A DNA stretch of 64,000 nt, from the NCBI GenBank assembly GCA_945870225.1, contig CAMBRF010000007.1, positions 1-64,000 on the forward strand, given 5' to 3'. This DNA is from PVC group bacterium (GTDB lineage Bacteria; Verrucomicrobiota; Kiritimatiellia; CAIKKV01; CAITUY01). Under the pieces are notes generated by a model, which worked only from the letters and a program-made list of their open reading frames with translations, ran no database searches and had not been told where the DNA came from. How positions within the stretch are numbered: the stretch's first letter is position 1; the number at the start of each line of letters is the position of its first letter. Shown here piece by piece: positions 639-22,838 of the stretch. Position numbers and translations under genes: made by a program.

Positions 639-1907
639 TTAAAGCCGGCCATCAACCTTGTCCCGGGCGATGAAGGCTTTGATGTCGAAAATAACCACGT
701 TTCCCTTGCTGAATCGGGCAAAGGCGATATCCCCGAACTTCTCATGAGAGACAGCCAGAACAACAGCATCGGTGGTGGCCTCCATGGTAGCATCTGGACG
801 GGGGCTCAGCTCCAATTGATATTCATGCCGAACCTCCTCGGGGTCGGCCCAGGGATCGTGGAGAATCACGTTGCAGCCGTATTCCTGAAGTTCCCTGACA
901 ACCCCGATAACCTTGGAATTGCGAATGTCGGGACAATTTTCCTTGAATGTGATGCCCAGCACCAGCACGTTGGCTCCCTGCACCTTATGCCCCTTCCGGA
1001 TCATCAGTTTGACGAGCCGGCTTGCCACATGGGCGGGCATATTGTCGTTAAGGCGGCGGCCCGCCAGGATTATCTCCGGATGATAGCCAAGCGATTCAGC
1101 TTTATGGGTTAGATAATAAGGATCGACCCCGATGCAATGGCCCCCGACAAGTCCCGGCCGGAATGGTAGAAAATTCCACTTGGTGCCGGCCGCCTCCAGC
1201 ACATCCATGGTATCAATTCCCATGCGTTCGAAGATGAGTGAGAGTTCATTGACGAAAGCAATGTTGATATCCCGCTGGGAATTTTCAATGACTTTTGCCG
1301 CCTCGGCGACTTTGATGCTGGGTGCCAGATGTGTGCCGGCGGTGATGATGGCGCGATAGAGCTCATCCACCGCCTTGGCCGCTTCCGGAGTTGAGCCGGA
1401 GGTGATTTTCTTAATTTTGGTGACGGTGTGGACCTTGTCGCCGGGATTGATCCGTTCCGGACTGTACCCGCAGAAGAAATCCTTGTTGAATTTCAAGCCG
1501 CTGAATTTTTCAAGAACGGGGACACAATCTTCCTCGGTGCAGCCGGGATAGACGGTGCTTTCATAGATTACGATGGCGCCAGGCTTAAGGGCTTTCCCGA
1601 CAGTCTCGCTTGCCTTAATGAGAGGGGTGAGATCAGGCCGGTTGTATTCGTCGATAGGGGTGGGGACGGTAACAATGAAGAAATCGCATTGCCGGATGTC
1701 TTCGATGGAATTGGAAACCGTGAAATGGGTGGAAGCCTTGAGATCGGCAGGACTTACCTCAAGGGTGCGGTCATGTCCGGCGCGGAGTTCTTCCAAGCGG
1801 CGTGTGTTGATGTCGAAACCGACGACCGGGTACTTCTTTCCGAACTCTACAGCCAGCGGAAGTCCGACGTAGCCGAGGCCAATGACAGCAATTTTGGTTT
1901 TATTCAT
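639..1907 (-). CDS. UDP-N-acetylhexosamine dehydrogenase (WbpA/TviB type)
   Basis: This is a 422-residue nucleotide-sugar dehydrogenase that oxidises C6 of a UDP-hexosamine to the uronic acid with two NAD. The NAD-binding motif GLGYVGLP is at residues 10-17, the G-Y-S-P-E-R-I-N-P-G-D substrate motif at about 147-157, and the catalytic cysteine at residue 258 in GGHCIGVDPYYL. Length and the E-V-S-P-A-D-L region resemble the TviB/VipA/WbpA branch rather than UDP-glucose dehydrogenase. The product would feed the polysaccharide made by this cluster. Substrate (GlcNAc or GalNAc) cannot be read from sequence. Confidence 0.9.
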   Translation of the reverse strand: MNKTKIAVIGLGYVGLPLAVEFGKKYPVVGFDINTRRLEELRAGHDRTLEVSPADLKASTHFTVSNSIEDIRQCDFFIVTVPTPIDEYNRPDLTPLIKASETVGKALKPGAIVIYESTVYPGCTEEDCVPVLEKFSGLKFNKDFFCGYSPERINPGDKVHTVTKIKKITSGSTPEAAKAVDELYRAIITAGTHLAPSIKVAEAAKVIENSQRDINIAFVNELSLIFERMGIDTMDVLEAAGTKWNFLPFRPGLVGGHCIGVDPYYLTHKAESLGYHPEIILAGRRLNDNMPAHVASRLVKLMIRKGHKVQGANVLVLGITFKENCPDIRNSKVIGVVRELQEYGCNVILHDPWADPEEVRHEYQLELSPRPDATMEATTDAVVLAVSHEKFGDIAFARFSKGNVVIFDIKAFIARDKVDGRL

Positions 1908-2082
1908 AAGCAGATCAGTCAGATACGTTTACCCCACTTGATAACACCAAGTCATTAGGATGATACTCTACACGGAAGAATGGTTCTGTCGAGTCAGGAA
2001 GCATGGCAAAACGTGGCGTCAAGAGTTTCAGCAATCCAGAGCTTTTTGACAGGATCAACAAAATGCCTCCTCAGTAGTAATG

Positions 2083-3582: not shown

Positions 3583-3586
3583 ATCG

Positions 3587-5803
3587 CTAAACGCCCTCTT
3601 TTGCCGCGGTGGGATACTTGTATGTTTTATAGCCCCGACCGTAGCGATAGTCGTAGTTACTTAAGAACGATATGCGGCCAAAGTTCACCGCGTTGACAAC
3701 AACCCCCAGCAACGGGGCGCCAGCCTGACTGAATTCCTCAACCACATTCCGCAAGGCATGCCGGTGGGTCACGCCTGGCCGGCTTACAAACACAACTCCA
3801 TCGACCATTCCGGCCAGCACGAGCGAGTCGCTGACCACGCCGAAGGGCGGAGAATCCAGAATGACCACGTCATATGAGGATCGTGCCCAAGCCATAAAAT
3901 CCTTCACAATCTTGTTCCCCAGAGTTTCTGCGGCGCTGAACTCCTGTGAGGCATGGTTCCCGATGACAAACAGGTTAGGGCAGTCCATCGTCTGTGGTAG
4001 ACTTGAGAAGTTTTCGGGTTTCCCCTGTCCGAGATAATCCAAAAGACAAGGCGTTTCCTCGGATAGCCGGAACACCGACTTAACTTTTGGACGGCGCATA
4101 TCGAAATCCACCAGCAGGGTTTTTACGCCTGTGCGGGCGAACGAAATAGCCAGATTGGTGGCCGTGATTGTTTTGCCTTCACTCGGTCCTGCGCTGGTGA
4201 TCAGCAGGCACGCCGGACGGGACTCCGCAGAGGGGGACATGATTTTTGTGCGAATGCCCGCGTAAGCCTCGGCTCCGTGACCGAATCGGTCCAGATCAGC
4301 TATGCGCCCGATGGCGAGCCGATTTTTCCCCTTCAGCATGGGGACCAGTCCGAGGACAGGAAGACCAAGCGCTCGTTCGAGATCATCCGTTCCAATAAAC
4401 CGGTCCTCGATCATTTCAACCAGAAGAGCTAGGGCCATCCCTCCGGCAATTCCGAGTAGAAGGCCTATGAGTAGAATGCGCATCCTTCGTGGTGTAAAGG
4501 GTGAATTCGGTTGAAACGCTCGTTCAACAATCTTTACCGTGGTGGTGTTTTCGTCAGAGGATATCCGGGCCTCTTCGATCCGCGTAAGCATGCTTCGGTA
4601 GCTCATTTCGGCCACATTCCGCTCCCGCTCCAATTCGCCGAATTCTGCCTGAATGCGGATAATGCGTCCTTCAAGCTCGGTGGCCGCCCGGGTTTGTGCT
4701 TCCATGCGTTCGCGCAGTCCTGCCGTTTGCTGCTCCAGGAGTGACAGGTTCGCTTCGGCGGTGCTCTGTGCCCGCTTGATCGCGCCCGCCACCTGTTCGC
4801 CGAGAACAGCAATATTCTTCGAACGTGCCACGACATCAGGATGATCCGGCGTAAACCTGGCCATCAGGGCGTCGCGTTGTTGGATAGCCAGCAACCACTT
4901 GGATACGGCCTCGACGATCTCTTCCCGGCGCGGGGTAGAATCAGGAAGGTCGCCGGCATTTTTCGGGTCCAGTGTGACCTTTTTCACCGCCGCCAGGAGT
5001 TTTCCCGCCAGAATGCGGGCATTATCAATTTGCGTGAGCTGTTCGCCTGTTTTCGTCAGCGAAGACTGAAGCGCGGCCCTCTCATTCTCGCTGGCGTCAA
5101 TGCGTTTGGCGTCCCTGAACGCTGTGATCGCCTTTGTGATCTTGTCGAGCGCTTTTTGCTGCTGGAGGGTCTGTTGCTCCAGCCAGGCCACGGCATTATC
5201 CGAGGCGATGCGATTTTCCTCCATGGCGAATTGCACGGCTCCTTCAGCGTAAGCATTGGCGCCCAGACTGGAGAGCGCAGGGTCTGTCGATACGCAGGCG
5301 ACGCTCAAGAGATAGGTGCGCCGCATTAGGCTGAACTGTCCACCACGGAGGATCTCCCTGATTTGGCTGTTTGACAGGGGGGGATGGTTGGTGTCGGACT
5401 GGAGATGCTGGGCCACCAACTCCCGCATTCGGGTTCCTTTGAATTTTTGGATACGTGTATTGAAGACTTCTTCCGTTGAGAGAGAAAAATAATCCGTATC
5501 ATCCGATATGGCGCCCCTTTGGGCGGTAATGCGAGGGCGGCGCACACTCATCTCAATCAGGCTATTGGCAATGTAAAGTGGCGTGATGTGAGAGAGATAA
5601 TACCACGCTGCGCTGCCGCCGAGTACCGTGGCCAATGCGATTAGATACCACTTGCGTAGGGCCACGCTCAGCAGGCGGCGCGGTGACAGCATTCCTCCCA
5701 GCCCCGAGTCCTCCTGATTGGGTAATCCATAGGGTGTCCCGGAGTAGGGGGCGGAGGGGGGTGGGGGCGGAGGAGGGGGCGTCATGTCGTTGTTAGGATT
5801 CAC
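3587..5803 (-). CDS. polysaccharide co-polymerase / tyrosine autokinase (Wzc-like BY-kinase)
   Basis: This fused protein of about 738 residues combines a Wzz chain-length domain (first membrane segment after the R-K-W-Y motif near residue 55, coiled coil around 200-440, second membrane segment near 450) with a cytoplasmic BY-kinase. Walker A is G-P-S-E-G-K-T near residue 540, Walker A' is LLVDFDMRRP, and Walker B is VVILDSPP. The tail carries a tyrosine cluster (Y-D-Y-R-Y-G-R-G-Y-K-T-Y-K-Y) of the kind that is autophosphorylated to control chain length and export. The GTG at 5803 is preferred because an AAAGG lies 7 bases upstream; an ATG at 5785 and a GTG at 5809 are alternatives. The N-terminus has eight consecutive prolines. 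Confidence 0.93.
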   Translation of the reverse strand: MNPNNDMTPPPPPPPPSAPYSGTPYGLPNQEDSGLGGMLSPRRLLSVALRKWYLIALATVLGGSAAWYYLSHITPLYIANSLIEMSVRRPRITAQRGAISDDTDYFSLSTEEVFNTRIQKFKGTRMRELVAQHLQSDTNHPPLSNSQIREILRGGQFSLMRRTYLLSVACVSTDPALSSLGANAYAEGAVQFAMEENRIASDNAVAWLEQQTLQQQKALDKITKAITAFRDAKRIDASENERAALQSSLTKTGEQLTQIDNARILAGKLLAAVKKVTLDPKNAGDLPDSTPRREEIVEAVSKWLLAIQQRDALMARFTPDHPDVVARSKNIAVLGEQVAGAIKRAQSTAEANLSLLEQQTAGLRERMEAQTRAATELEGRIIRIQAEFGELERERNVAEMSYRSMLTRIEEARISSDENTTTVKIVERAFQPNSPFTPRRMRILLIGLLLGIAGGMALALLVEMIEDRFIGTDDLERALGLPVLGLVPMLKGKNRLAIGRIADLDRFGHGAEAYAGIRTKIMSPSAESRPACLLITSAGPSEGKTITATNLAISFARTGVKTLLVDFDMRRPKVKSVFRLSEETPCLLDYLGQGKPENFSSLPQTMDCPNLFVIGNHASQEFSAAETLGNKIVKDFMAWARSSYDVVILDSPPFGVVSDSLVLAGMVDGVVFVSRPGVTHRHALRNVVEEFSQAGAPLLGVVVNAVNFGRISFLSNYDYRYGRGYKTYKYPTAAKEGV

Positions 5804-5854
5804 GTGCACGCCTTTCTTTTTGTCTTGGTGTCCGGACGTCGCTCAGATGCAGGC

Positions 5855-6457
5855 TTACTGGCCAGGATATTTTTCTCCGGGAAGTACGATGGAAGGTCCC
5901 TCGGGAATGATGGTCGGAAGGGGGGGGGCCTTTGCCGGGGCTTGGGTTGGAGTCGGCAGAATGATTCCCCGGACGACACCAACTTCGGTGGGTAATAGGA
6001 CGGTCGTCGGGCTGGAGCAGGCAGCTTGGCAGGCCTCGCTGGCCTGTGTATTGGCGGCCACGGCTGCCAGCATGCCCTCCGCAACGGAGGAAGAATTGTC
6101 GCCGGCGGCGACCACCGCCGTCGCCGCAACGAGAGAGATGGACTGGGGCGGAACAAGGCCGGCCACGAGGCTCATCATGGGGCCTGACTCCATGCCTTTG
6201 GCGGCCACGGCATAGGTGATCAGGGCAATGCTACTCTCTCTCTTTTTTGCATCCGACCAGTTCGATGCTTGAATCGCGGCGAGGGTTTTCGCGACGAGGG
6301 TGGCCGACGCCTTTGCATCCTGATTTTTGATGGCGGCAACGATGGATTCAGGGTTGGCTGCAATATCCTTCGGATTCGACGAGTTTGCCGCCCGCGCCGC
6401 CATCGTGCTGCCCGCCAGTACAAGACATATTGCCACGATTGCCTCTATTGCCTTCAT
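5855..6457 (-). CDS. secreted protein of unknown function, polysaccharide cluster
   Basis: I do not recognise the family. From the ATG at 6457 it is about 200 residues, with a signal peptide (MKAIEAIVAICLVLAGS...AARA). An alanine-rich, probably helical body follows, then a C-terminal 40 residues rich in proline (P-T-P-T-Q-A-P-A-K-A-P-P). It lies between the outer-membrane barrel gene (24 bp away from this ATG) and the tyrosine kinase gene, so a periplasmic accessory role in polysaccharide assembly is plausible but is inference only. The longer frame to 6475 lacks a better ribosome site. Confidence 0.65.
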   Translation of the reverse strand: MKAIEAIVAICLVLAGSTMAARAANSSNPKDIAANPESIVAAIKNQDAKASATLVAKTLAAIQASNWSDAKKRESSIALITYAVAAKGMESGPMMSLVAGLVPPQSISLVAATAVVAAGDNSSSVAEGMLAAVAANTQASEACQAACSSPTTVLLPTEVGVVRGIILPTPTQAPAKAPPLPTIIPEGPSIVLPGEKYPGQ

Positions 6458-6481
6458 ATCGCCTCCCTCATCCAAATTACC

Positions 6482-7753
6482 TTAATAGGCGGCTTTCGCG
6501 CCCAACGTGATCCGGGTTTCCTTGTAATCACCCCGCACGTTATCCGTCGTGTCTTCCGTCCATAACTCGACGTAGCCTTTGAGCCACTTGAACACCTGAT
6601 AATCACCGTGGAGGCGAAGATGCCATTGTTCCACAAGGCGCTTGACCAGTGCTTCGCCGGCTAATTCTTCTCCACTGGTGAAGTCCTCATGGCGATAACC
6701 GACGAGGGCTGTAATGGACAACCGCTTGGTGGCGGAATATTGGGCACTTCCCGTGACCATGTTGACCAGTTTGGCGTTTCTCGCTGTATCAGGTGCCAGC
6801 TGCATCTCACTGCGACCACCGAGGGAGAAGGAGAGCTTTGGGCGCACCTGCCAGTACCAGGCCAGATCGTAGGCCGGGCCATCACGGTGAAGCGCTCCCG
6901 TGGATTTCGGTTCGCTGGTCTCAAATCCGTAGTATCCGAAGGTTCCTTCGAAACGGCTCTTGAAGGTGCCCTGCCAGCGCCAGCCTAATTTTCCCGAATA
7001 CGTATAGGCAGGATTATCAAGACTGTCATTCTGCATTTGAATAATTTCACCGGAAAGTACCGCGCTGGATTTATCGGTCACCCCGCGTGCCGCCTTAAGT
7101 GAAATTTTTTGTTCGTTGGAGTCATATAACTCCTCGGGGAAATAGTCGACCAACCCGTAGTCGCATATGGCATCGAAGGACATTTTTTCCGTCAAGGGGC
7201 CGCCCAGTCCGACACCGCAATCGAGAAGATACCGGTCCACACGCTCGGTTCGCTCCATGACGCTTAAAGGGGTCGCCTCGGTCCGCTCAAGGTAGCGGTC
7301 ACCGGTTCCCTCGGCCGTGGTGTCCATGGTGCGGACGGAAAGATCGTAATCTGACACGCGGCCGAAACGTTCGTGGAGCTGAAGGCGCACTTCTTCCCTG
7401 CGACCCAGAGCCAGGCGCAGCTCTTCGGACCAGTCGTCCCGGTCCTCACTCGTGAACTCGTCGAATCGTCTAAAGCGTCCCCAGAACAGTCCTTCCATGC
7501 GGATGCTCTCCCGGGCGCGTGTTACATTCACTCCGGGACTCAAGTCCCAGAAGGAGTCGCTTTGCTCCTGCCCGATGGGCTTCAAGAGCGGGTTGCTGTC
7601 ATAGCTGTATGCAGCCTCAATAAAAGGGCGCACCACGAAGTCGCCGCCGGGTTGAATTCCCGAGCCGGGCTTGCCGGGTGCGGAGGTTGCCCCCGCTGCA
7701 ACGATCAAGACCGCGAAACTGCCAAGGATGGTTTTTTTTCGAGACAGGATCAT
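6482..7753 (-). CDS. outer-membrane beta-barrel protein of an exopolysaccharide system
   Basis: This 423-residue protein has a signal peptide (hydrophobic stretch ILGSFAVLIVAAGATSA). The rest consists of alternating amphipathic strands with aromatic girdle residues and many charged turns, ending in K-A-A-Y as a beta-barrel does. The opening after the signal (V-R-P-F-I-E-A-A-Y-S-Y-D-S-N-P-L) is typical of barrels found beside Wza/Wzc genes in exopolysaccharide clusters. Its ATG overlaps the stop of the export-protein gene by 4 bp, so the two are translationally coupled. It may be the final outer-membrane pore or an anchor; the precise role is unknown. Confidence 0.8.
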   Translation of the reverse strand: MILSRKKTILGSFAVLIVAAGATSAPGKPGSGIQPGGDFVVRPFIEAAYSYDSNPLLKPIGQEQSDSFWDLSPGVNVTRARESIRMEGLFWGRFRRFDEFTSEDRDDWSEELRLALGRREEVRLQLHERFGRVSDYDLSVRTMDTTAEGTGDRYLERTEATPLSVMERTERVDRYLLDCGVGLGGPLTEKMSFDAICDYGLVDYFPEELYDSNEQKISLKAARGVTDKSSAVLSGEIIQMQNDSLDNPAYTYSGKLGWRWQGTFKSRFEGTFGYYGFETSEPKSTGALHRDGPAYDLAWYWQVRPKLSFSLGGRSEMQLAPDTARNAKLVNMVTGSAQYSATKRLSITALVGYRHEDFTSGEELAGEALVKRLVEQWHLRLHGDYQVFKWLKGYVELWTEDTTDNVRGDYKETRITLGAKAAY

Positions 7754-8433
7754 AGGACCGCCTCAGGTACATAAACGATATCTCCAGGGAGGAGCCGCAT
7801 ATCGTCCTTGGCCTCCCCGCGTGAGCCGACTCGATCGAGATCGACCTCAAACTGCTCGGTGGTATTGTCGTGCGTTCTCGTAACGCGGATGGCCTTGCTG
7901 CGCGCGCTTGAATCAAGGCCGCCTGCCAGCTGAATAGCCCGGCTGACGGTGAGCTCGCGTGTTGGGGGGACATTAATCTGACCGGGTTTTCTGACCCGGC
8001 CCAGCACAGTAACATAGCCCCAAGGGGAGACCGCCGTGTCTCCCGATTCCATGAGGCACTCCACAATGACCTCTGGGGCAACATAGAAACGGCCATATGC
8101 TTTTTTAAGAAGGGTTTGCGCTTCAGCGATCGTCAAGTCCACCACGCGAACCTCACCGACCAGCGGCAGCGTAATAACGCCCAACTCTGATATCCGGCGA
8201 TTTTTTTCGTCAATTTCCTTCTGGCCGGTGACCAGCACCTGTATATTTACCGTCAGGCCGGCGCGCAACTGGGCCCGGACCGTTGTATTGCTGGCATCGG
8301 GCGTCTGGCCTGACCGGCCCGGTGGTGAAGAGGTGCGGAGGCTCTGGCAACCGCCGCTCGCCAGGAGTGCGCTCAATACGATAAGCAGGCAAGGCCGCAT
8401 GCCAAATCGAGATCTGTTCACATCACGCTTCAT
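7750..8433 (-). CDS. polysaccharide export protein (Wza/Poly_export and SLBB type)
   Basis: This protein of about 227 residues has a hydrophobic N-terminus and a likely lipidation cysteine (L-A-S-G-G-C, an imperfect lipobox). A Poly_export domain (residues about 45-115: V-N-I-Q-V-L-V-T-G then R-R-I-S-E-L-G-V-I-T-L-P-L-V-G) is followed by one SLBB beta-grasp domain (V-T-V-L-G-R-V-R-K-P-G-Q-I). It ends P-G-D-I-V-Y-V-P-E, the family's usual finish. Short Wza-like proteins with one SLBB domain usually work with a separate outer-membrane barrel, here the next gene. Start 8433 is chosen because it gives a 4-bp ATGA overlap with the ABC transporter stop; 8448 is in frame but less likely. Confidence 0.92.
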   Translation of the reverse strand: MKRDVNRSRFGMRPCLLIVLSALLASGGCQSLRTSSPPGRSGQTPDASNTTVRAQLRAGLTVNIQVLVTGQKEIDEKNRRISELGVITLPLVGEVRVVDLTIAEAQTLLKKAYGRFYVAPEVIVECLMESGDTAVSPWGYVTVLGRVRKPGQINVPPTRELTVSRAIQLAGGLDSSARSKAIRVTRTHDNTTEQFEVDLDRVGSRGEAKDDMRLLPGDIVYVPEAVL

Positions 8434-10268
8434 AACGTTTTCGCGCAAGGAATCCGCACCAAGTCGTTATAGATCATCGAGTTTTTTGCCAATTCTTCGT
8501 GAGGCGCAAAAGCCTCAACGCGCCCCTGATTCAGCAGAAGCACGCGGTCAGAACGTTCAATCGTTGCCAGACGGTGCGAAATGGCGATGAGTGTAGAATG
8601 ACGCCGAACGAGGGGCAAGACTGAAAAGATGGATTCTTCGATCTGGTTGTCGAGAGGAGCCGAGAACTCGTCCATGACGAGAATGTCCGGATCGGACACC
8701 AGAACCCGGGCCAGCGCGAGGCGTTGTCTCTGCCCTTCCGACAGATTTGCTCCCCGCTCTCCGAGCCGCGTATTCAATCCCTCGGGCAACCGCTGTACAA
8801 ATTCTGTCATTTGGGCGGTTTCCAGCGCGCGGTCGATGTCTTCCTGCCGGGCCTGTTCGTTCCCGAAACGGAGGTTGTCCAGAATCGTTCCTGAGAAAAG
8901 GGTGGCTGTCTGCGCAAGGTAGCCGATCCGCCGCCTCAGACTGCCGAGTTCATAGTCACCGGCCGGTACGCCATCATAAAGCACGGTTCCGGAACCCGGT
9001 TGGTAAAAGCGAAGCAACAGACCGATCAGCGTACTCTTGCCGACCCCGCTTGCTCCGACAATGGCAATGTGCTGACCGGGTTCGATACGAAAGCTGACAT
9101 CCTGCAGGATGGGGGAGGCCGGGTCGTAGGCAAAGCTGACTTCGCGGAATTCCACCTCGCCCTTCAATCGCTCGACGGGTTGGCGTTTCCCCTCGTTCGG
9201 TTCCGGAACGATCCGGGTCAGGGCTTGCACACGTTCCACGGCGGATAGAGCCCGATGCATATTGAAATGCGTGTTGACGATCTGGTTCATGGGGCCGAAT
9301 ATTCCGGACAGGGCAGACTGAAAAGCCGTCAAAGAGCCCAGCGTCCATTCCCCTTTCAGGATGAGCCATGCGCCCGCCGCCAAAACGGTGAATTGGACCA
9401 GACTGGGGGCCAGGCTGACGACGGTGGAGCCAACCGATCCGACGGCCAACTGCTCCATCCCCATGTCGTACATTTTCTCCAGTCGGGCTGAGAGCCCTTT
9501 GGCGGTGCGCTGTTCCACTCCGTGCGCCTTGATCAGCGTGGCATTCGACAAGGATTCCTGAAGTGCGCCCTGGAACTGAGCATTCAGCTCCATGCTGTGG
9601 CGGTTCAGGTTGCGAATGCGCCGGCCGACGAACTCACTGCCCGCCGCCAGGACCGGGAGGGCAAGAATGGCGATGAGCGCCAGATGCCATTCCAGGAAGA
9701 CCAGCAGGATGGCGTTTCCGATCAGACGGATCAGGCTGCCCGCCCAGGCGACCGGTGATGCCGATAAAAACCAGCCGGCTCCCTGTGAGTCACCCGAGAT
9801 GCGGGACTCAAGATAACCCGTCTCGTGCCGGTCCAGGAAAAGCTTGGGCAACCTGAAGACCCGTTCGAAAATCGCGGCCTGAAGATCGAGCATGGCCGCC
9901 TGTTGAAACCGTGCGAACAGGTACTGTTGGGCCACGCCCAGCCCCAATATGGCTGCGCCCGCCACCACATAGATTCCCAGCACATAAGGAAGCCATTGCC
10001 CCTGGCCTCCGAGTAAAACGCGATCGACAAGGAAACGATGCATCAGGGGGAGGGGCAGAGCCAGAAGTATCCCTGCCATCATGGCGGTCACCGCCGTGAT
10101 GAGAAGGGCCTTGTGCTTTCTCGCATGGGGCCAAATGAGCCTTTGCGCGTCGCGCAATGCGTCGCGTGTGGATGACACCCGTCCGCTCATGGGGTCCTGG
10201 GCCGCTTTCCGTTGCCAGCCTTGACGTAGATGTTTGGCGATGTGTCTCATTGTTTTTCGACTGTGCAA
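8430..10268 (-). CDS. ABC exporter, fused membrane and ATP-binding domains (MsbA/peptide-exporter type)
   Basis: This half-size exporter of 612 residues has six membrane helices (about residues 50-330) and a C-terminal ATPase. The ATPase shows Walker A G-A-S-G-V-G-K-S-T, signature L-S-E-G-Q-R-Q-R, and Walker B I-L-V-M-D-E with the catalytic glutamate and a following histidine switch (A-I-S-H-R-L-A). There is no C39 peptidase domain at the N-terminus, so it would not itself cut a leader peptide. It sits 10 bp behind the HprK-like kinase gene and overlaps the Wza-like gene by 4 bp, so it could export the modified peptide, a lipid-linked sugar or a lipid. The start is TTG at 10268 with a GGATGG just upstream, or ATG at 10250. 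Confidence 0.92.
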   Translation of the reverse strand: MHSRKTMRHIAKHLRQGWQRKAAQDPMSGRVSSTRDALRDAQRLIWPHARKHKALLITAVTAMMAGILLALPLPLMHRFLVDRVLLGGQGQWLPYVLGIYVVAGAAILGLGVAQQYLFARFQQAAMLDLQAAIFERVFRLPKLFLDRHETGYLESRISGDSQGAGWFLSASPVAWAGSLIRLIGNAILLVFLEWHLALIAILALPVLAAGSEFVGRRIRNLNRHSMELNAQFQGALQESLSNATLIKAHGVEQRTAKGLSARLEKMYDMGMEQLAVGSVGSTVVSLAPSLVQFTVLAAGAWLILKGEWTLGSLTAFQSALSGIFGPMNQIVNTHFNMHRALSAVERVQALTRIVPEPNEGKRQPVERLKGEVEFREVSFAYDPASPILQDVSFRIEPGQHIAIVGASGVGKSTLIGLLLRFYQPGSGTVLYDGVPAGDYELGSLRRRIGYLAQTATLFSGTILDNLRFGNEQARQEDIDRALETAQMTEFVQRLPEGLNTRLGERGANLSEGQRQRLALARVLVSDPDILVMDEFSAPLDNQIEESIFSVLPLVRRHSTLIAISHRLATIERSDRVLLLNQGRVEAFAPHEELAKNSMIYNDLVRIPCAKTL

Positions 10269-10278
10269 CCATCCATGC

Positions 10279-11184
10279 CTAACCTAAACGCCCATCCGGC
10301 ACGGGCGGTTGGCGCAAGTCCGCCCGAATCACCTCTACAATGTCAGGTGTGGGGCGGAAGGCTAACACAGCGCAGGGTACCGCGTGAAGCAGCGTCTCGA
10401 TCGTTGCCAGGCAGGGATCGAGGAGCGCCGGATCCTGCCAGGGAATAGTCGCCACATGAAGGAGCCGACGCACCGCTTCGCTTGGCGCAACGGGTGCAAT
10501 CCGGTCCCGCTCGCCATGCTCAAGAAAATAGAGTCGTCGGAGCGGGGCCCACTCATTACGGGCAAACCCTGCCGAACTGGGCCAGGGCGTGCCGTATACC
10601 CGGAAGGGATTGGATAAGGATGTCCCTAGTCCCTGTGCCGGCCACTGACGTAAAGCCGGCCGTTCATCGGTCAGAACCTTGGCCCCGGCGGCATCGAGCA
10701 GGCGGGCGAGGGTGCTTTTCCCGGTTCCTGAGATCCCCACGCAAAGAATACCCTGCCCATCGATTTCGGCGGCCGTTCCATGGAGGACCAAACCTCCCTG
10801 CGCTCTGAGCCGTAGGACGAGAAGCGACAGCCCCAAGCCTGTTCCCCAAGCGCGACCGTAGGATCCGTAATATTCCGTAAAGCGATGGGGCTCCCAAGTG
10901 ACGGTGGCGCGATCAAAGGTGAGGGGACCGGTAATCTTCCAAAGCGGCTTCCCTTCCTGATTGCGGCGGACCACCTCGCAAACATTCCGGCTAACGGTAA
11001 AAGACCAAGGCTTGTCCGGCGCGGAGGGTTGCGTCGCCAGAGCCTCGTCCGGCCCACGCGAGTCGACCTCACAGGTAAGGTCGCTTTCCTTGGAATCAAG
11101 CAGGAAGGGATGAAAGGGCGGAAGAAACTCCGAGGTTGGATCCAACCCTGCCAAAGAAAAACGGACTCCGGCAATGGTCAGCAT
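10279..11184 (-). CDS. HprK-like P-loop kinase (HPr kinase-related, PqqD-associated)
   Basis: This 301-residue protein resembles the catalytic half of HPr kinase/phosphorylase. It has H-G-T-A-A-E-I-D-G, then Walker A GISGTGKST at about residues 148-156, then V-L-T-D-E-R-P-A-L-R where classical HprK has its acidic S-D-D motif. The N-terminal 120 residues are unlike the HprK regulatory domain. The genome neighbourhood (PqqD-like gene, small peptide, ABC exporter) is that of HprK-related kinases in peptide-modification systems. In the lasso peptide paeninodin such a kinase phosphorylates the C-terminal serine. A kinase acting on the 55-residue peptide encoded 6 bp upstream is therefore the working inference; no PTS HPr gene is visible. 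Confidence 0.85.
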   Translation of the reverse strand: MLTIAGVRFSLAGLDPTSEFLPPFHPFLLDSKESDLTCEVDSRGPDEALATQPSAPDKPWSFTVSRNVCEVVRRNQEGKPLWKITGPLTFDRATVTWEPHRFTEYYGSYGRAWGTGLGLSLLVLRLRAQGGLVLHGTAAEIDGQGILCVGISGTGKSTLARLLDAAGAKVLTDERPALRQWPAQGLGTSLSNPFRVYGTPWPSSAGFARNEWAPLRRLYFLEHGERDRIAPVAPSEAVRRLLHVATIPWQDPALLDPCLATIETLLHAVPCAVLAFRPTPDIVEVIRADLRQPPVPDGRLG

Positions 11185-11190
11185 TAAGGC

Positions 11191-11358
11191 CTACTCGATG
11201 ATGCTGTTGCCCAGCGTGACGAGTTTGACGGGCCCATTCGTTCCGGTCGCGGCGGCCGGACTGACATAATTCCCCCCTGCGTCCAAATCCACTTGCGACA
11301 CCTTGGGGGCCTCATACATTTCAGCACCGGAATTAGCCAGAGGCTTTAAATCGCTCAT
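11191..11358 (-). CDS. 55-residue RiPP-precursor-like peptide
   Basis: The frame runs from an ATG at 11358, whose first bases overlap the PqqD stop as ATGA, to a TAG at 11193-11191, only 6 bp before the kinase gene. It is too short for many gene callers. Residues 1-13 are MSDLKPLANSGAE; residues 14-20 are MYEAPKV, which matches the Y-x-x-P-x-[LVI] signature used by lasso-type leader peptides to bind their PqqD-like recognition element. The rest is Gly/Asn/Thr/Ser rich and ends VKLVTLGNSIIE, with serines at 33 and 52. There is no signal peptide. The tight coupling on both sides argues that it is a real gene; that it is a modified-peptide precursor is inference. Confidence 0.8.
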   Translation of the reverse strand: MSDLKPLANSGAEMYEAPKVSQVDLDAGGNYVSPAAATGTNGPVKLVTLGNSIIE

Positions 11359-11672
11359 ACACTTTCTCCCTGTTCCTTTCGCTCAACCACGAGATCCATC
11401 CTGACCATGTCGGCCAGAAAGGCATTCACGTCATGCTGAGCAACCTCACGTGAAATACTATACACTTCAGCCAGGCTGTCGGCGAGTTCGTTTTTAGAAT
11501 GCGGCGACGCAATCCAATCCCAGAGACGATTGCCCGTACTGTTTAACGTATAGACGCAATGTGTGCAACCATGCACCGGAACCAGCAGGTTTACCCCAGC
11601 CACACAGCGTGTAACAATTTCCTCCCTGCGGACATATTTTGTTTGATGGAGGGCTGGGGGTTGCTGGTTCAT
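11355..11672 (-). CDS. PqqD-like peptide chaperone / RiPP recognition element
   Basis: This 105-residue winged-helix protein has the PqqD pattern: a beta-strand pair (G-V-N-L-L-V-P-V-H...), the hallmark YTLNSTGNRLWDWI at about residues 41-54, then helices with S-K-N-E-L-A-D-S-L and D-V-N-A-F-L-A-D-M. Such proteins bind leader peptides and hand them to modifying enzymes. The ATG at 11672 overlaps the C25 peptidase stop by 4 bp, and its own stop overlaps the peptide start by 4 bp. An open frame extends upstream to 11825 but only inside the peptidase gene. It also has cysteines at residues 23, 36 and 39. Confidence 0.88.
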   Translation of the reverse strand: MNQQPPALHQTKYVRREEIVTRCVAGVNLLVPVHGCTHCVYTLNSTGNRLWDWIASPHSKNELADSLAEVYSISREVAQHDVNAFLADMVRMDLVVERKEQGESV

Positions 11673-14600
11673 GGGGCATCCATCTCCCGGACGCGATAGA
11701 AGGACTGCGTGGTGGTGTCTGGGGCGGGAACCTCGACGGTGGTGACCGGGCCTTGCGGGGTGATGAAGGTTTCGGGTGGGGTCCACTCGGTCGCATTGGT
11801 CCAGGACCATGCGGAGGCCTGCCATCCGTTTGTGTCGAGTAATGATGTTCCGAACGCAACCGTATACTGCCGGTTTGAGTCCGTCTCAAAGGAGATCGCA
11901 TATCGCCCGGGCCGTTCCTGTGGCAGCGCCTTGATCTGCAACTCACAGTTGGTGGGGCCCGTCTGGGCTTGATATTCCTGCCATGTGGGCCAGCCATCAA
12001 GATCAGGATCGGCCAGATCGGCATTGGGAGCTGTCATGCCGTAATTGGCGAGCCACGCCGCCGGTGTTCCCATTGCGGATACATCATGACGAAAAACCAA
12101 AGCCGGGTCACCGATCAGGCTGTAACACAGGAGCCGCTCGGCCGGCATGACGCCGGCCTGGCTTTGTAACCCGCGCCGCCACACATCACCCAGCCGCACC
12201 GTCCCTTGAACGGCGGCATTCGAATACAGGCTGACAGCCAAGGGTTCCCCCTCGCTCCCCAGCATATACCCGGTGGCCCCCAGAGCGGCAACGAAGCCGG
12301 TATTGGTCGCAAACAGGCCGTAGGGCAGGATGCAGACCGTTGCGGTTAGGGACTGCCAGCGGTTGGGGCGGCAACCAATGACAATCCCAATCGTGGGCTT
12401 TTGCCAGTTGGCAGGGGCGACATCGGCATTTCTAAGAAGTTTACTGCTGCCTCCGCCGAGATTTTGCTCATCCGTATGCCCGAAGAAGTGAAACAGCCCT
12501 GAGCCCGAGCTCAGTGCGGGAAAAAGACTGTTTAGGCGAACGACTGCCCCGCTGCTCGAGGCGGTGATGTAGTGTTTCACAACGTTTCGGTCAGCTTCAG
12601 AAAGCGGATCAACTAGGCAATCCGTTGCCGCGCTGAACTGGTAATATTTATTACTAATATTATCCCAATCCGCCGCGATTGAGGCTTGCTGCTTCCAGGT
12701 CAGCATGCCTTCATAATCCATCGTCTTTTGCGCAAATACGGCCAGGTCCTGAGTTTTGGTGGTTGGCAAACGCCCTATCGCTACCTCGGGAATGTTGTCA
12801 CCATTGACATCACCGAATGCCCCATCTATTGCAACCGTCATCCCTTCGCCACTGAATTCAAACCGCTGACCAGCAATCAGCGGAGGAATCAGGCAGGCGG
12901 TGTAATCATTCACGGACAGGCGCTGGTGCTTAAAATCGAGAGCACCGGCCCCCGCCAGTAACAGGTAGCGCAAGGGATGCGCGGTCCCGTTGGTATACCC
13001 TTCGATGCAGAAGGCGCGAATGGCAAGGGGATCAACCAGTCCATAGCTGTAACGATTATAGAGGGATTCGACATCCACGATCACGGTTTTCAATCCCTGT
13101 GCACTTCGGAAATCGGCGAGCGGTTGTAAAGCAGGACGGAAGTCCGGGCGCCATGCCTCAGGCGGGACCAGAATGACATAATCAGCCGCCTCGGCAGCGG
13201 CCGACCAGTCCACGTCGCGAACACCCCGGACCGCCGGCAACCGAGTTCCCAGTGACTTGGAAAAAACCTGATAAATCTGCCCCGTGCCACCACAGGGAAA
13301 CGCCGCCGCCCAATTGCTCGCCGCCGTGTCGTAGGCCATCGTGACGGGCTCGATGGCAACCGGCAAATTCGTCACGGATACATCCCATGCCATGATGTCA
13401 TTGGTGGCGAACCCGGAAACCACGACGGTATTGCTCTCGCCCCCGGTGCAGCGCAAGGATCCTTGATGCGCACGATAATATGCTGGATAAGCAAATACAT
13501 AAGAAACAAGTATGAAAAGCGAATTCGCTCCTGAATTATCAGAGGTATTAGTTACGCTTAATGTTGCCATGCCTGAAACCAGATTTGTCGATGAAAACGA
13601 ATAGGTGCCAGACAAATACTGTTCATTCGACCATGTCAAAGAACCTGCGTTCTCCCTCCCAATCAACACCCCCGCCTCATGGTCATCCACGCCTATGTTG
13701 TATTCCGACAAGAGATTTACAGTCACCAAACCTGTCCAGTCCCCTGTAATGCAATCTACCAATGTTTCAACAAACTGAGCCCTATTGGATGCATTCAGAG
13801 AATTAAAGGCAACGTATGGCGCTTGAACATCAACCAAAGTACTGTGAGTTACCCGAGTTAGGTAGTTGGTCCCCTGTCGCGTGATCATATTGACGAACCA
13901 GTCGTTGGTGGTGGCAGGCTCGCCCGGCGTCATCACTTGTGTCGCCATACGCGAGCCCTCTCCCAAGGAGACCCAGTAGACGTTTTCCGGTGCAAAGCGC
14001 GAGTCGGTTGGGCGGCCGTGGAAAAACAGGTTAGTGCCCTCCGCAAACCAGGCAACGGAGGCACCCTGGCAACTCAGGTTCAGATTGGTGCTGGCGATGG
14101 CGTTAGAGACCGTGGCGAGCCCCCAGCCTGATGCATCGGCCAACTCCTGGTCCGATACGCGATAAACGCCTTCATCCCGCAAACTTAGCCGGACGCGGTC
14201 GGCCGGTGCTGCGTTGGTCCAGATTAACACGCGGGCCCCGGAGCCAATCCACCCTTGTACGAGGCGTACGGAATCGTCTGTGGCCTTGTCTTGGGCAGAG
14301 ACCAAGACGGGCTCCGGGCGGGGGACGGCAATTTTGATGACACCGGTCCAGTCGGCCACCTTTTGATCCGGACCGTGGCGGGAGGCGAGCATGAGTTCAT
14401 AGCGAACGGTTTCACCCGCCTGTACAAGTGGGTCCATCAGCTCGTAGGTGTCGCCAGTTTCATCCCCGTGTGATGGCACATAACCGGCTCCCACGGGTTC
14501 CAACTCTCCGCCGTTGCGCTGCCGCAAGACGCGAAAGGACTCAACTCCGAGTTCAACAGTGGTCTGCCATCGCACCCAGGCCGCGCCGTCTTTCTGTTGG

Positions 14601-14728
14601 GCCGATGCCTCGAAACGGCTAACCGTTGCGGCAGGGCTGTACAGCAATACTTCCTGGCTGGCGGCGCCAAAAGGGCAAGCGGACGCTAAAATATGCGTCA
14701 AACTAATCGCTATGAGATGTCTACGCAT
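11669..14728 (-). CDS. secreted C25 (gingipain-type) cysteine peptidase family protein
   Basis: About 1019 residues from the ATG at 14728 (MRRHLIAISLTHILASA signal peptide; 14755 is a longer alternative). A fibronectin-like segment follows the signal peptide. The C25 domain shows Y-V-I-L-V-P-P-E, the G-D-V-N-G-D-N-I-P-E-V-A-I-G-R-L-P motif, a catalytic-type histidine in FFGHTDEQ (residue 751) and a cysteine in VIGCRPNRW (residue 786). Their spacing of 35 is close to that of gingipain R. A D-x-D-x-D-G linker and a C-terminal module ending SFYRVREMDAP follow. The C25 family includes secreted proteases and PorU-like sortases. Coupling to the PqqD gene suggests, but does not prove, that it processes or attaches the peptide or another surface protein. 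Confidence 0.85.
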   Translation of the reverse strand: MRRHLIAISLTHILASACPFGAASQEVLLYSPAATVSRFEASAQQKDGAAWVRWQTTVELGVESFRVLRQRNGGELEPVGAGYVPSHGDETGDTYELMDPLVQAGETVRYELMLASRHGPDQKVADWTGVIKIAVPRPEPVLVSAQDKATDDSVRLVQGWIGSGARVLIWTNAAPADRVRLSLRDEGVYRVSDQELADASGWGLATVSNAIASTNLNLSCQGASVAWFAEGTNLFFHGRPTDSRFAPENVYWVSLGEGSRMATQVMTPGEPATTNDWFVNMITRQGTNYLTRVTHSTLVDVQAPYVAFNSLNASNRAQFVETLVDCITGDWTGLVTVNLLSEYNIGVDDHEAGVLIGRENAGSLTWSNEQYLSGTYSFSSTNLVSGMATLSVTNTSDNSGANSLFILVSYVFAYPAYYRAHQGSLRCTGGESNTVVVSGFATNDIMAWDVSVTNLPVAIEPVTMAYDTAASNWAAAFPCGGTGQIYQVFSKSLGTRLPAVRGVRDVDWSAAAEAADYVILVPPEAWRPDFRPALQPLADFRSAQGLKTVIVDVESLYNRYSYGLVDPLAIRAFCIEGYTNGTAHPLRYLLLAGAGALDFKHQRLSVNDYTACLIPPLIAGQRFEFSGEGMTVAIDGAFGDVNGDNIPEVAIGRLPTTKTQDLAVFAQKTMDYEGMLTWKQQASIAADWDNISNKYYQFSAATDCLVDPLSEADRNVVKHYITASSSGAVVRLNSLFPALSSGSGLFHFFGHTDEQNLGGGSSKLLRNADVAPANWQKPTIGIVIGCRPNRWQSLTATVCILPYGLFATNTGFVAALGATGYMLGSEGEPLAVSLYSNAAVQGTVRLGDVWRRGLQSQAGVMPAERLLCYSLIGDPALVFRHDVSAMGTPAAWLANYGMTAPNADLADPDLDGWPTWQEYQAQTGPTNCELQIKALPQERPGRYAISFETDSNRQYTVAFGTSLLDTNGWQASAWSWTNATEWTPPETFITPQGPVTTVEVPAPDTTTQSFYRVREMDAP

Positions 14729-14790
14729 ATGCGCCAACAATAATAGGTTGAACAAAAGCTCACGAAGACCATAAAGAGGATATCGTATTC

Positions 14791-17700
14791 CTACCGCACG
14801 CCGATTTTGAAGAAGGCGGAAGGCTGGTCAGGATCGAAGGCGATAAAGGCCGCGGTTAGAGTCGTCGAGGCCTCAACCGTTTGAACGTACTCCCAAATGC
14901 CGCCCAACTGCGCGGCTCGATAAATGTCGTAGAGGCGGCCGGGTGTGCTCTCCCACTGCAAGGTCATGCCGGAGGCATCGGTCTGGGCAATCTGGGTGTT
15001 CTGGGTTGTGAAACTGCTCACCAGAAGACCTGTGGCATTATGAACCCTTCGCTCGTCATCACTGACAAATAGATCAATGCTATCGCCTGCCTTCAGCCCC
15101 GGGACCAGGAAACGATAGGTGTGACTTCCCTCACCTGTGGCCGGCTGACGCCCGACCTCCACCCATTGCCCGTCACGAGATAGATATAGGATGATATCAT
15201 TCTGCCCGGCCTCTTCGATCGTCTGAAACTCAACGACCACCCCATTGGGAGTCTCATAGGCAAGAATGACTGCTCCTGCCGCATTGGGTTCCAGTTTCAG
15301 CACAATGTATCCATCATCACTGGCCGTCTTGTTAACGTAGTAAATGTGATATTCCTCGTTGGGTGCCAGATGCAGCAAAGAGGTGTCTTCCAGCAGGTTC
15401 CCAGGGGCTGCCGTGTCATTAAACAAACCGGTATTCCCGTTTCTCACGATATTAATGGCCAGCGTACGGCCATCTCCGGTAACCTCGCCTGTAATGTCCA
15501 ATACCGAGTCCGGATCCAACGTCAAACTCCCCGTGCCCATCATATTGAGTTTGTCGCAGGTGGTGCCGCCGCCGATATCACATTCGTAAGTTGATCCCGC
15601 CTCGAACGTAACCGCGCCGCCGATATTCAGGGTGTCCACACTTCCGGGGGTCGTTCCGGGCTCTACACGGGAGCCGCTTTGGGCGTTTACTGAACCAGCG
15701 ATGGTCCCATCTCCTGCCAATGTGGCCGTATCGTAAACCGTCACGGCTCCACTTCCCGTGCCCGAGCCGCTGGTATTGACAACCATCAGAACCCCGGAGT
15801 TCACCGCCGTCGGTCCCTCGTAGACGTTTGCACCGTTGAGGATTAAAACATCACTGCCATTCTGGGAAACTCCACCCGTGCCTGAGATCAAGCTGTTGAA
15901 TTCCGTTCCCTGAGTGACTGTGTCGGACTGATTGAAGACCAGCGTCGCATTGTCGATGATCTCGCTATTGACATTGATCGATCCGGTGGTGCCTCCATTA
16001 CCGATCTGCAGCGTACCGCCGTCAATGGTTGTCACCCCGGCGTAGGTGCTGTCACCCGCGAGGATCAATGTGCCGTCGCCAGTCTTGTAAAAATCACTGC
16101 TGCCATCGTTGTCGGCAATGATGCCCGCATAATCCACTGTATAACCCGAGTCGATCTGAATCGTTCCGGAACCGGATCCGGTTGTCGGGCCCAGCGCGAT
16201 GCCGCGGGTGTCCGCGAGGGTGAAATCGGCCATCGCTTCAAGCGTCCCGCCGTTGATGACGATCCGTCCAGCTGTCGCCGAGTCCGGTACTGTGCCGAGA
16301 TTGTCGTCGGAACTAACAGCGACAATCCCGCTATTCACAATCGTACGACCAGAGTATGTGTTCGCCCCGGAAAGCGTCAACGTGCCGGAGCCATCCATGA
16401 CCACATCGCCATGCCCCAGCAGATAACTTCCCGCTCCGTCCGTGCCGTCGCCGGCGATCTCGCCTGCGATAGAGATGTCGCCGTCACCCTCCAGGAAGAG
16501 ATTTTGATAGGTGTTCACCGGGTCGGTCAACGTGTCGGTGTCAACGGTGATATTATACAAGGTGAGTGTAGCTCCGGCCTCAGAACGAATGACCGATTTT
16601 CCTGTGTCATTAATGCCGATTACAACCACTCCTTCCCATGTGTTGTCGCCAGACACGCTCACTAATTTTGCCTTGTCCAGGATCATCGCCTTAGGCACCG
16701 AAATGTTACCGGTCAGTTCCACCGTCGACAGGGCATTAACCTCAACCCTGTCCCCTCCACTCAACGCACTCTTCCCGAAAGCGGCCTTGTTTGAGATCCT
16801 GGCTGTGTCAACAATGACTTTGGTCTTTCCGCCATAGGTGCTCGCCCCAGAAAGCTCAATGGTGCCTTCTCCGTCGAGTGAAAGGTCGTGGGAAAGGCTG
16901 CCGGCGGCGGAAATGACCCCTCCATAGGTCAGGGTTACGCCTGTCGTTTCGGTCCAAAACCCGGTAGTTGCACCCGCCACCGTGATCTTGGCGCCGCGCT
17001 TTGCGTTGAGAGTGAACGAGGACGTTGCCAGCAAATAGCCTCCACCGAGTTGAATCTTGTCGGAAACTATTGAACCCGGCACTGCGCCTAGATTGCCATC
17101 GCTGCTGACGCTCAGAAAGCCGCTGGAGATCAATGTCTTTCCTGCGTAGGTATTGGCACGAGTGAGTATTACCGTCCCCGCTCCTGAACCGCCTTTTGTC
17201 ACAACCACATTTGTTCCTGACCCGGAAATGATCCCTGAAACCGTTATGTTTCCATCATTGCCTGTGGTGTGGTTGGCGGAAAGCACCACTGAACCTGAAG
17301 AACCAAGTGAAATATTGCCACTTACCGTGAGCGTGCCGCCATCTGTACCAGCTTCACTTGTAATCGTTCTGGATGCCGCAAGTGTCAGATTGATGGCCCA
17401 CGTGTTGGCGCCAAGGTTGCCCATGGCGCCACCAAGCGTGAGATTGTTGCCGGAAATGGTATAGCCCCCTCCAAGGAAGTTCACCGTTCCGACACTGGTA
17501 AGAAAGTCATTATTGTTGGTTTTCCTTGCTGCATCTGCGGGAAAGACGAGGCTGTCTCCGTTGCTTGGCAGGCCGTCGGTCCAGTTGGAGGCGTCATTCC
17601 AGTTCGCGCTGCTTCCTCCGCCGGTCCACGTGTGTGTTGTTGCCGCATAGACCGGCAGTGCGCCCAGCATGAGCCACCCAACAAGCCATACCCTCCACAT

Positions 17701-17799
17701 ACGCCGGGAGATGGCCGGACAGGCAACATGGTTTTTGCATTTTTGAAACGCAAAGCCGACTGCATTGATTGATGCATTCATCATGATATGGTTTTCCAT
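14791..17799 (-). CDS. secreted autotransporter-type beta-strand repeat protein
   Basis: This 1002-residue protein has an extended signal peptide (hydrophobic core W-L-V-G-W-L-M-L-G-A-L-P-V-Y-A near residue 50). The signal is followed by T-W-T-G-G-G-S-S-A-N-W-N-D-A-S-N-W, the usual opening of autotransporter-associated beta-strand proteins. More than ten repeats of the type G-x-G-x-L-x-L-x-G-x-N-T-Y-x-G-x-T-x-I-x-x-G-x-L then build a beta-helix. There is no C-terminal autotransporter barrel; instead it ends in a small module finishing SAFFKIGVR. It is probably a surface or matrix protein. It is the first gene of the polysaccharide unit and lies about 60 bp upstream of the C25 peptidase gene, so the peptidase may act on it. 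Confidence 0.85.
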   Translation of the reverse strand: MENHIMMNASINAVGFAFQKCKNHVACPAISRRMWRVWLVGWLMLGALPVYAATTHTWTGGGSSANWNDASNWTDGLPSNGDSLVFPADAARKTNNNDFLTSVGTVNFLGGGYTISGNNLTLGGAMGNLGANTWAINLTLAASRTITSEAGTDGGTLTVSGNISLGSSGSVVLSANHTTGNDGNITVSGIISGSGTNVVVTKGGSGAGTVILTRANTYAGKTLISSGFLSVSSDGNLGAVPGSIVSDKIQLGGGYLLATSSFTLNAKRGAKITVAGATTGFWTETTGVTLTYGGVISAAGSLSHDLSLDGEGTIELSGASTYGGKTKVIVDTARISNKAAFGKSALSGGDRVEVNALSTVELTGNISVPKAMILDKAKLVSVSGDNTWEGVVVIGINDTGKSVIRSEAGATLTLYNITVDTDTLTDPVNTYQNLFLEGDGDISIAGEIAGDGTDGAGSYLLGHGDVVMDGSGTLTLSGANTYSGRTIVNSGIVAVSSDDNLGTVPDSATAGRIVINGGTLEAMADFTLADTRGIALGPTTGSGSGTIQIDSGYTVDYAGIIADNDGSSDFYKTGDGTLILAGDSTYAGVTTIDGGTLQIGNGGTTGSINVNSEIIDNATLVFNQSDTVTQGTEFNSLISGTGGVSQNGSDVLILNGANVYEGPTAVNSGVLMVVNTSGSGTGSGAVTVYDTATLAGDGTIAGSVNAQSGSRVEPGTTPGSVDTLNIGGAVTFEAGSTYECDIGGGTTCDKLNMMGTGSLTLDPDSVLDITGEVTGDGRTLAINIVRNGNTGLFNDTAAPGNLLEDTSLLHLAPNEEYHIYYVNKTASDDGYIVLKLEPNAAGAVILAYETPNGVVVEFQTIEEAGQNDIILYLSRDGQWVEVGRQPATGEGSHTYRFLVPGLKAGDSIDLFVSDDERRVHNATGLLVSSFTTQNTQIAQTDASGMTLQWESTPGRLYDIYRAAQLGGIWEYVQTVEASTTLTAAFIAFDPDQPSAFFKIGVR

Positions 17800-17915: not shown

Positions 17916-19073
17916 ATGAAGGACACTTCTCCAATATTCAGCCCCTCCGAGCCCGGTGGTTTTGCCTGGTTGACCCGCGCGTTCAGTCCGCAAGGGGGCA
18001 TGCTGCGGCTGTCAGACGATCTTTGGACAACGGTTGAGCCCCTTCTCGACGCGCATCGAGTTGCAGGCCTGCTTAATGACCGCATTCAAAACGGTTTCAT
18101 CGAAGCTTCCCTCCGGGTTCAGTTCAACCTCGCGGCCCGACTGGCGCGATGGACTGAAGCTACGCGTGAATGGCCTGCTTTGGCGGGAGGGATTCTGGAT
18201 GCGTTTCAGAGCCGTGACATTCCTTGCCTTGTCCTGAAAGGCTGGGCCCTGATCCCCTTGGTCTATGACGGGCGCCGGGAATTGCGCGAGGTTAACGATC
18301 TGGATTTGCTCATCCCCCGTTCCCATCTCCAGGCGGCTGATGCCGCTCTGCTTGAGGCGGGCTTTTCCATTCCGCCACAGGCGGAGGTCTGGCCTGGTTT
18401 TGCCCATCGATACAGCCACGAAGCGCTTTATGCGCGCCGGTGTGGAACCCGCCGCCCGATGGGGGTTGACCTGCACTGGCAGGCCATGGGTAGTCCGCAA
18501 CTCTGGTCAAGGGTCGGTCACGACTGGTTCGGTCGAGCCAGGGAGGTTGTTTGGGAGGGCCGGAGGATGCGTGTGCCGGCAGCCGAAGACCTTTTTCTCC
18601 ATCTGTGCGGTCATGAAGTGATTGACCATGCCCGTGATGCCGAGCCTTTGTTGTATCGGTTTATTGACCTGCAACGCCTGGCCGCCCTGCCCAGTTTCTC
18701 CTGGGCGACCCTGCAGGAACTGGCTTGCGACTCTTCGTTGACCGGAGCCCTGCGTTCCCGCATCGAAGCCCTGCATGGACTTTGGCCCGAGATGATTCCC
18801 GAAGGGGTTCTCGATTCCTGCCGGCGTTTGCCTGTCGGTCCGGCAGAACGGGAAGCGATGAGGGAGGCCTTGTCTCGCACCCACGCGTTGCGCCCGTCGC
18901 CCGGCTTGCGCTGGATCCCTGGATGGGGAGCCCGCTTAAGATACTTCTTCGGAAAACTCTTCCCCTCGTTGTCTTTTTTGCGTGCGGTGTACCGTCTTCC
19001 GCCCAAGGCCTCGTATATTGAGGGGTTGTTGGCCCGCTATGGGACGCGCATGAAGACTCTTATGCGCACATAA
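17916..19073 (+). CDS. nucleotidyltransferase family protein (PF14907 type)
   Basis: This 385-residue protein has the Pol-beta-fold nucleotidyltransferase pattern: LKGWALIPLVYDG at about residues 108-120, then R-E-V-N-D-L-D-L-L-I-P with the two metal-binding aspartates, then V-D-L-H-W-Q about 55 residues on. Members of this family are regularly found beside HprK-like and PqqD-like genes, and here it is divergently transcribed from that operon. Its substrate is not known. The C-terminus is basic and has a hydrophobic patch. A terminator hairpin follows. Confidence 0.85.
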   Translation: MKDTSPIFSPSEPGGFAWLTRAFSPQGGMLRLSDDLWTTVEPLLDAHRVAGLLNDRIQNGFIEASLRVQFNLAARLARWTEATREWPALAGGILDAFQSRDIPCLVLKGWALIPLVYDGRRELREVNDLDLLIPRSHLQAADAALLEAGFSIPPQAEVWPGFAHRYSHEALYARRCGTRRPMGVDLHWQAMGSPQLWSRVGHDWFGRAREVVWEGRRMRVPAAEDLFLHLCGHEVIDHARDAEPLLYRFIDLQRLAALPSFSWATLQELACDSSLTGALRSRIEALHGLWPEMIPEGVLDSCRRLPVGPAEREAMREALSRTHALRPSPGLRWIPGWGARLRYFFGKLFPSLSFLRAVYRLPPKASYIEGLLARYGTRMKTLMRT

Positions 19074-22836: not shown

Positions 22837-22838
22837 AA

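Follow-up and report, generated by a model that had tools for sequence, protein, structure and literature searches.

Linear Polyphosphorylated Peptides (LPP) were published in May 2026 from the lppAKBSDN genes of Paenibacillus alginolyticus. The LPP gene set is placed in Bacillota capsule loci and includes a precursor, an RRE, an HprK-like kinase, an SpI peptidase, an MsbA-like exporter and an NTP transferase. The phosphorylation was proven to depend on LppK, the SpI peptidase LppS was shown to process, and LPPs are stated to be confined to Bacillota. The RRE-binding motif was defined as [Y/W]xxPx[V/L], and the residues N33, D70, F74 and L83 of LppB touch the leader, D70 being the one that bonds the Tyr of YxxP (PMC13381572). 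The paeninodin-type kinases require a His-Lys-Asp-Asp motif and act on a Ser near the C-terminus (PMC9266682).

The locus described here lies in a stretch of 64,000 nucleotides, the whole of which is referred to as the window. It is read as a phosphopeptide (RiPP-type) cassette working like LPP, in which the steps of the RRE, the kinase, the NTP transferase, the exporter and a C25 peptidase are combined, and this reading is considered rather probable. A phosphorylated peptide that is not a lasso peptide is supported, and the same kind is already known from LPP (PMC13381572). Two features are new: the coupling of a C25 peptidase gene to that of the RRE in a genome where no SpI was found, and a nested clade of peptide and kinase in which the RRE gene and the YxxP motif are gone and the C-terminal LGxS serine is kept.

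The cassette within an exopolysaccharide operon

The three touching or overlapping genes of the original prediction were confirmed on the (-) strand. They encode a discrete PqqD-like RRE (11355..11672, ATG at 11672, 105 aa; PF05402, E 5.4e-13), a precursor-like peptide of 55 aa (11191..11358) and an HprK-like kinase of 301 aa (10279..11184). Two further genes of the same strand frame them, so that the order is C25 peptidase (11669..14755) – RRE/PqqD – 55-aa peptide – HprK-like kinase – MsbA-like exporter (8430..10268). The C25 stop codon overlaps the RRE start by 4 bp (ATGA), and an identical overlap (4 bp, ATGA) joins the end of the RRE gene to the start of the peptide gene. The peptide and kinase genes are spaced by 6 bp, and the kinase and exporter genes by 10 bp. 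This C25-RRE-peptide-kinase-ABC order is kept in genomes from several families. The best model for the exporter is TIGR02203 (E 3.8e-110, below the cut-off); its Pfam domains are ABC_membrane and ABC_tran only, without a C39 peptidase domain.

An NTP_transf_5 nucleotidyltransferase-like gene (17916..19073; PF14907, E 9e-31) likely belongs to the cassette as well, although it is placed on the (+) strand and 7 kb off. It is found near four of the eight type I kinases (defined below) and adjoins the cassette in L053, L058 and L059. Its comparison with LppN is to be read with this strand and distance in mind, the LppN family being given without an accession (PMC13381572). The C25, exporter and NTP_transf_5 genes were absent from the original count of cassette parts. 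Since the NTP_transf_5 gene is present and the C25 and RRE genes are translationally coupled, the earlier view of the kinase as the only tailoring enzyme is not supported.

The cassette belongs to an exopolysaccharide operon. Downstream of the exporter, and on the same (-) strand, the exopolysaccharide genes (639..8448) encode Wza (7750-8448), a BBP2 outer-membrane barrel (6482-7753), a Wzc-like protein (3587-5809), a Wzy/ligase (2083-3582) and a nucleotide-sugar dehydrogenase (639-1907). In a related genome (G007), Wza and the barrel are likewise found after the cassette. The first gene of the apparent operon encodes a PATR (autotransporter-repeat) surface protein (14791..17799, (-) strand; PF12951), and it holds the equivalent position in L032. 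By their predicted products, the genes for Wza, the outer-membrane barrel and the autotransporter-repeat protein point to a Gram-negative envelope and away from a typical Bacillota host.

Beyond the cassette, genes for TIM-barrel isomerase-like, DHQ-synthase-like, type I phosphodiesterase, UbiA prenyltransferase and squalene-hopene-cyclase-like proteins are found in a row (19156-25614), possibly a pathway for a cyclitol or prenyl product. They are followed by an odd fusion at 26183-27526, where a single 447-aa frame combines a match to shikimate/homoserine kinases (about residues 13-177) with a REP-associated tyrosine transposase (304-421).

Peptide, RRE and kinase

A profile built from four copies of the peptide retrieved 11 peptides, here named type I, in 9 of 346 genomes of the class. 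With a wider profile, 388 sampled genomes of the phylum yielded no copy outside this class. Lack of conservation of the small frame had been named beforehand as grounds for giving up the prediction; the frame is conserved, and it is judged to be a real gene and not a chance ORF. Eleven columns are invariant in the 11-copy alignment (A6): M1, Y15, P18, V20, L25, D26, G28, G29, N30, Y31 and V32. The motif common to all 11 peptides is YxxPxV....LDxGGNYV. Its first part is YEAPKV in the window (Y15-V20; 11299..11316, (-) strand), which corresponds to the RRE-binding motif [Y/W]xxPx[V/L]. The second part lies in the block LDAGGNYVSPA (L25-A35; 11254..11286, (-) strand), a candidate cleavage region. 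About residues 37-46 the type I peptides vary in length, and their end keeps a [LW]Gx(x)S-like motif. Cys is absent from all 11.

The gene order around the peptide can vary. In G216 (L058, 9850-9945), the peptide gene precedes the C25 gene and is not placed in the RRE–kinase interval. G158 contains two GGNYVSP peptides right after surface-type genes (PATR-like, fn3), at L054 (570-707) and L055 (about 9419-9550). A close kinase is present in eight of the nine genomes carrying a type I peptide; none was found in G158, a genome that is 79% complete.

The RRE gives its highest scores with lasso RRE models. A profile of ten RRE copies, compared with the PDB, matches TbiB1, LppB (9x8z, E 1.8e-9), PbaB1 and TfuB1. 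The window residues N44, D81, F85 and L94 correspond to the leader contacts N33, D70, F74 and L83 of LppB. Since D70, which bonds the YxxP Tyr in LppB, matches the conserved D81, the window RRE looks like the Tyr-reading type.

The kinase has the P-loop signature of HprK and matches PF07475, ScmC (E 2e-7, 30.6 bits against a cut-off of 125) and HprK_rel_A of the HPr-rel-A system (TIGR04352, 25.7 bits against a cut-off of 200), all below the cut-offs. Its AF2 model has a pLDDT of 90.9 and matches HprK and PEPCK significantly in Foldseek, with a good superposition for the catalytic half only. H135, the G150xSGxGKS segment (Walker-A K156) and D173-E174-R175 are invariant in nine relatives. The catalytic acid, on which the original prediction also depended, is thus kept as D173, and E174 may occupy the fourth position of the His-Lys-Asp-Asp motif as a conservative change.

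Two serines are candidate acceptors. S52 (11203..11205, (-) strand) is part of the C-terminal TLGNSIIE, and the fourth residue from the end is Ser in 9 of the 11 type I peptides and Thr in one. S33 (11260-11262, (-) strand) is Ser in 10 of the 11 copies and lies 18 residues after the Tyr, which is the spacing of the phosphorylated S3 of LppA. This agreement has a chance of roughly 5% of being accidental (our estimate, with about 20 positions available). S52 is the likeliest phospho-acceptor and S33 the second, because a C-terminal Ser accompanies this kinase wherever the latter is conserved, and because the paeninodin-type kinases use a Ser at this end. S33 as the sole acceptor was demoted to second choice, as it is missing from the RRE-less clade described below and from L059; even so, sequence alone cannot separate the two. 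At L059 (4162-4341), the peptide of G199 has an Asp at the S33 position and a residue other than Ser at the fourth position from the end, and keeps a WGGS motif.

In the proposed mechanism, the RRE would bind the YxxPxV of the precursor and present the precursor to the next step. The HprK-like kinase would then phosphorylate a Ser, most likely S52 and less likely S33, with the NTP transferase perhaps adding to this phosphate. Export of the peptide would fall to the MsbA-like ABC protein. Subsequently, C25 would cut the leader, putatively within LDxGGNYVSP between N30 and Y31, or transfer the peptide to a surface acceptor, and so cover the job for which no SpI was found. This cut site is suggested by the invariant N30 and by the register with LppA, which is cut between T-1 and A1. 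The phosphorylated peptide that was originally predicted draws support from the conserved peptide, RRE and kinase; of its coupling to polysaccharide export, the operon membership is what stands, and it suggests that the product may be tied to the polysaccharide.

Relatives with and without the RRE

A class-wide profile of the kinase, run on the 346 genomes, gave close homologues in 17. Co-occurrence with the peptide had been set as a further test of the prediction, and all 17 kinases adjoin a peptide gene of 46-62 aa, eight of type I and nine of a second type (type II). The type II pairs belong to nine genomes of family f33 (G106 and eight others), in which a 46-47-aa peptide gene is directly upstream of the kinase gene. 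No RRE, C25 or adjoining exporter was found within the stretches examined, which are short in some contigs. The pairs are located at L105-L112 and L034 (1-379), mostly amid housekeeping genes.

The two types of peptide align without gaps, as in YEAPKVSQVDLDAGGNYVS with FEVADASEVKLGVGGTFKA. The hhalign E-value of the alignment is 4e-4, and 2 of 50,000 column shuffles score equally. In type II, YxxP is replaced by FExA and S33 is gone, and the GG block and the C-terminal LGxxS-like serine are kept. The loss of YxxP alongside the RRE gene in this nested clade, with the GG block and LGxS retained, supports the phosphopeptide reading. The type II peptides are conserved over their whole length and not in the leader alone, and one pair of their genes shows 17 synonymous codon differences and 0 non-synonymous ones.

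In the kinase tree, type II is a single clade (100/100) beside type I, and the RRE-bearing kinases of radical SAM loci fall outside both. L057 branches below the two types with moderate support (86/66). From this position of the RRE-bearing kinases, the type II pair looks reduced and not ancestral. The simplest reading of these sequences is that type II would represent a joint loss of the RRE, its motif and the export.

The persistence of the pair admits other readings. The kinase and a dedicated substrate of about 50 residues could form a self-standing module, to which one branch adds the RRE, the exporter and a C25 leader peptidase or sortase; this is possible though not likely. Somewhat less probable is a two-gene phospho-switch, in which the kinase phosphorylates a very small protein of the cell in the way that HprK phosphorylates HPr, the peptide is an intracellular regulator, and the RRE, C25 and exporter are add-ons of some lineages. 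The nine f33 pairs, mostly among housekeeping genes in the stretches examined, together with the conservation of the type II peptide throughout and the codon differences given above, speak for such a switch. However, a reduced type II pair does not fit an ancestral switch, and the window form has both an RRE and an exporter.

The RRE-bearing kinases outside the two types come from a sister branch (L035-L039, L068-L087) with the layout C25 – RRE – radical SAM – Cys-containing YxxP peptide – kinase. Its peptides mostly end in -GS, its loci often carry S26 and NTP_transf_5 genes, and it extends to many families of the class. The branch is probably a family of radical SAM phospho-RiPPs. Peptides lacking Cys are seen where no radical SAM was found (type I, type II and L074), which fits the action of a radical SAM enzyme on Cys. 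In the window, no match was obtained with the local radical SAM profile.

The C25 peptidase and the comparison with known systems

The LPP-like reading of the cassette depends for its last step on the C25 peptidase, a gingipain/PorU-like member of the family (PF01364, E 2.3e-47). Its N-terminus resembles a signal peptide, so the enzyme would act only after export. H760 and C795 are invariant in eight copies. Recognition of the P1 residue is common among clan CD peptidases. Among the 30 kinase loci with an RRE, 23 have a C25 gene upstream of the RRE gene and on its strand, about 19 of them within 250 bp, and the cassette C25 is the sole C25 of its genome in both the window genome and G097. The AlphaFold model (pLDDT 55) is too poor for use. 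A search of the genome for SprA, of the T9SS core, gave no match, and neither did the control genomes.

SpI (SipW-like, TIGR02228) had no match in the window genome (84% complete), G016, G097 or G106, and control genomes did match. The idea that C25 simply replaces SpI is weakened by the many radical SAM loci that carry both C25 and an S26 peptidase. In the open-licence PMC literature, no relevant report linking C25 or PorU to RiPPs or lasso peptides was found, nor the use of C25 as leader peptidase or sortase on an exported phosphopeptide.

The PorU likeness of C25 also opens a different and rather improbable explanation. The peptide would be processed, and a PorU-like sortase would anchor it on a surface polysaccharide or protein, with phosphorylation minor or absent and the kinase acting elsewhere (on a sugar or a lipid carrier). 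C25 matches the PorU models over a long stretch and is coupled to the RRE, and the operon contains surface and polysaccharide genes. However, the PorU match is far under the cut-off (NF033707, E 2.8e-28, 98 bits against 420). The related kinases LppK and PadeK act on peptides (PMC13381572, PMC9266682), and the kinase–peptide pairing persists where C25 and the RRE were not found, so that the kinase appears to belong with the peptide. A lasso cluster in decay, its cyclase and B2 peptidase lost, would fit the lasso models that score highest with the RRE; it is very improbable, as the cyclase-free layout is kept in all relatives and a plausible Gly1 has no Asp/Glu at the spacing of a ring. A lasso peptide proper is rejected, in line with the original observation, in which these enzymes were not seen: no Asn-synthetase (cyclase) match was found on the window contig and no B2 peptidase above the cut-off in the window genome.

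The phosphopeptide cassette shares parts with four described systems. With PorU and the gingipains it has in common the C25 domain with its conserved His and Cys and a PorU-like upstream region, and it differs in scoring below the PorU cut-off and in the coupling to an RRE. With SynChlorMet (NCBIfam ScmA-F) it shares the kinase match to ScmC and the logic of RRE and peptide, whereas the kinase is below the ScmC cut-off and the window has no radical SAM gene; the SynChlorMet layout is closer to the radical SAM sister branch. Like the paeninodin/pseudomycoidin-type lasso peptides (PadeK, ThcoK, PsmK, PsmN; PMC9266682), it has an RRE, an HprK-like kinase and a likely nucleotidyltransferase-type partner. 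Unlike them, it has no macrolactam cyclase or B2 peptidase, and its Ser is the fourth from the end instead of the last. By the comparisons made, the cassette is neither a lasso, a SynChlorMet nor an HPr-rel-A system, and its C25 is not a PorU.

LPP is the closest system. The window differs from it in having the RRE-coupled C25 gene where no SpI (LppS) was found, in its Gram-negative-type envelope genes and in having RRE-less relatives. Its leader has LDxGGNYV in place of the VLxHQxIxFET part of YxxPxVLxHQxIxFETxxS, and of the full leader consensus only Y, P, V and the Ser at +18 agree. An LPP-like consensus leader that we wrote had no match in the PDB. Since neither SpI nor the full leader consensus was found, the cassette is not classed as a member of LPP.

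The RRE-less clade provides a natural experiment, in which the RRE and its motif are gone and the kinase, the peptide and the C-terminal serine remain. The target of the kinase and the requirement for the RRE become testable with two-gene constructs and peptides of 47-55 aa. In common with LPP, the window contains a small YxxPxV precursor, a discrete RRE that appears to read Tyr, an HprK-like kinase and an MsbA-like exporter in a polysaccharide locus with no lasso cyclase; the NTP_transf_5 gene is the likely counterpart of the LPP NTP transferase. By analogy, the cassette would work like LPP with a gene set that is nearly equal apart from SpI, and it would represent an LPP-comparable gene set outside a Bacillota-type envelope.
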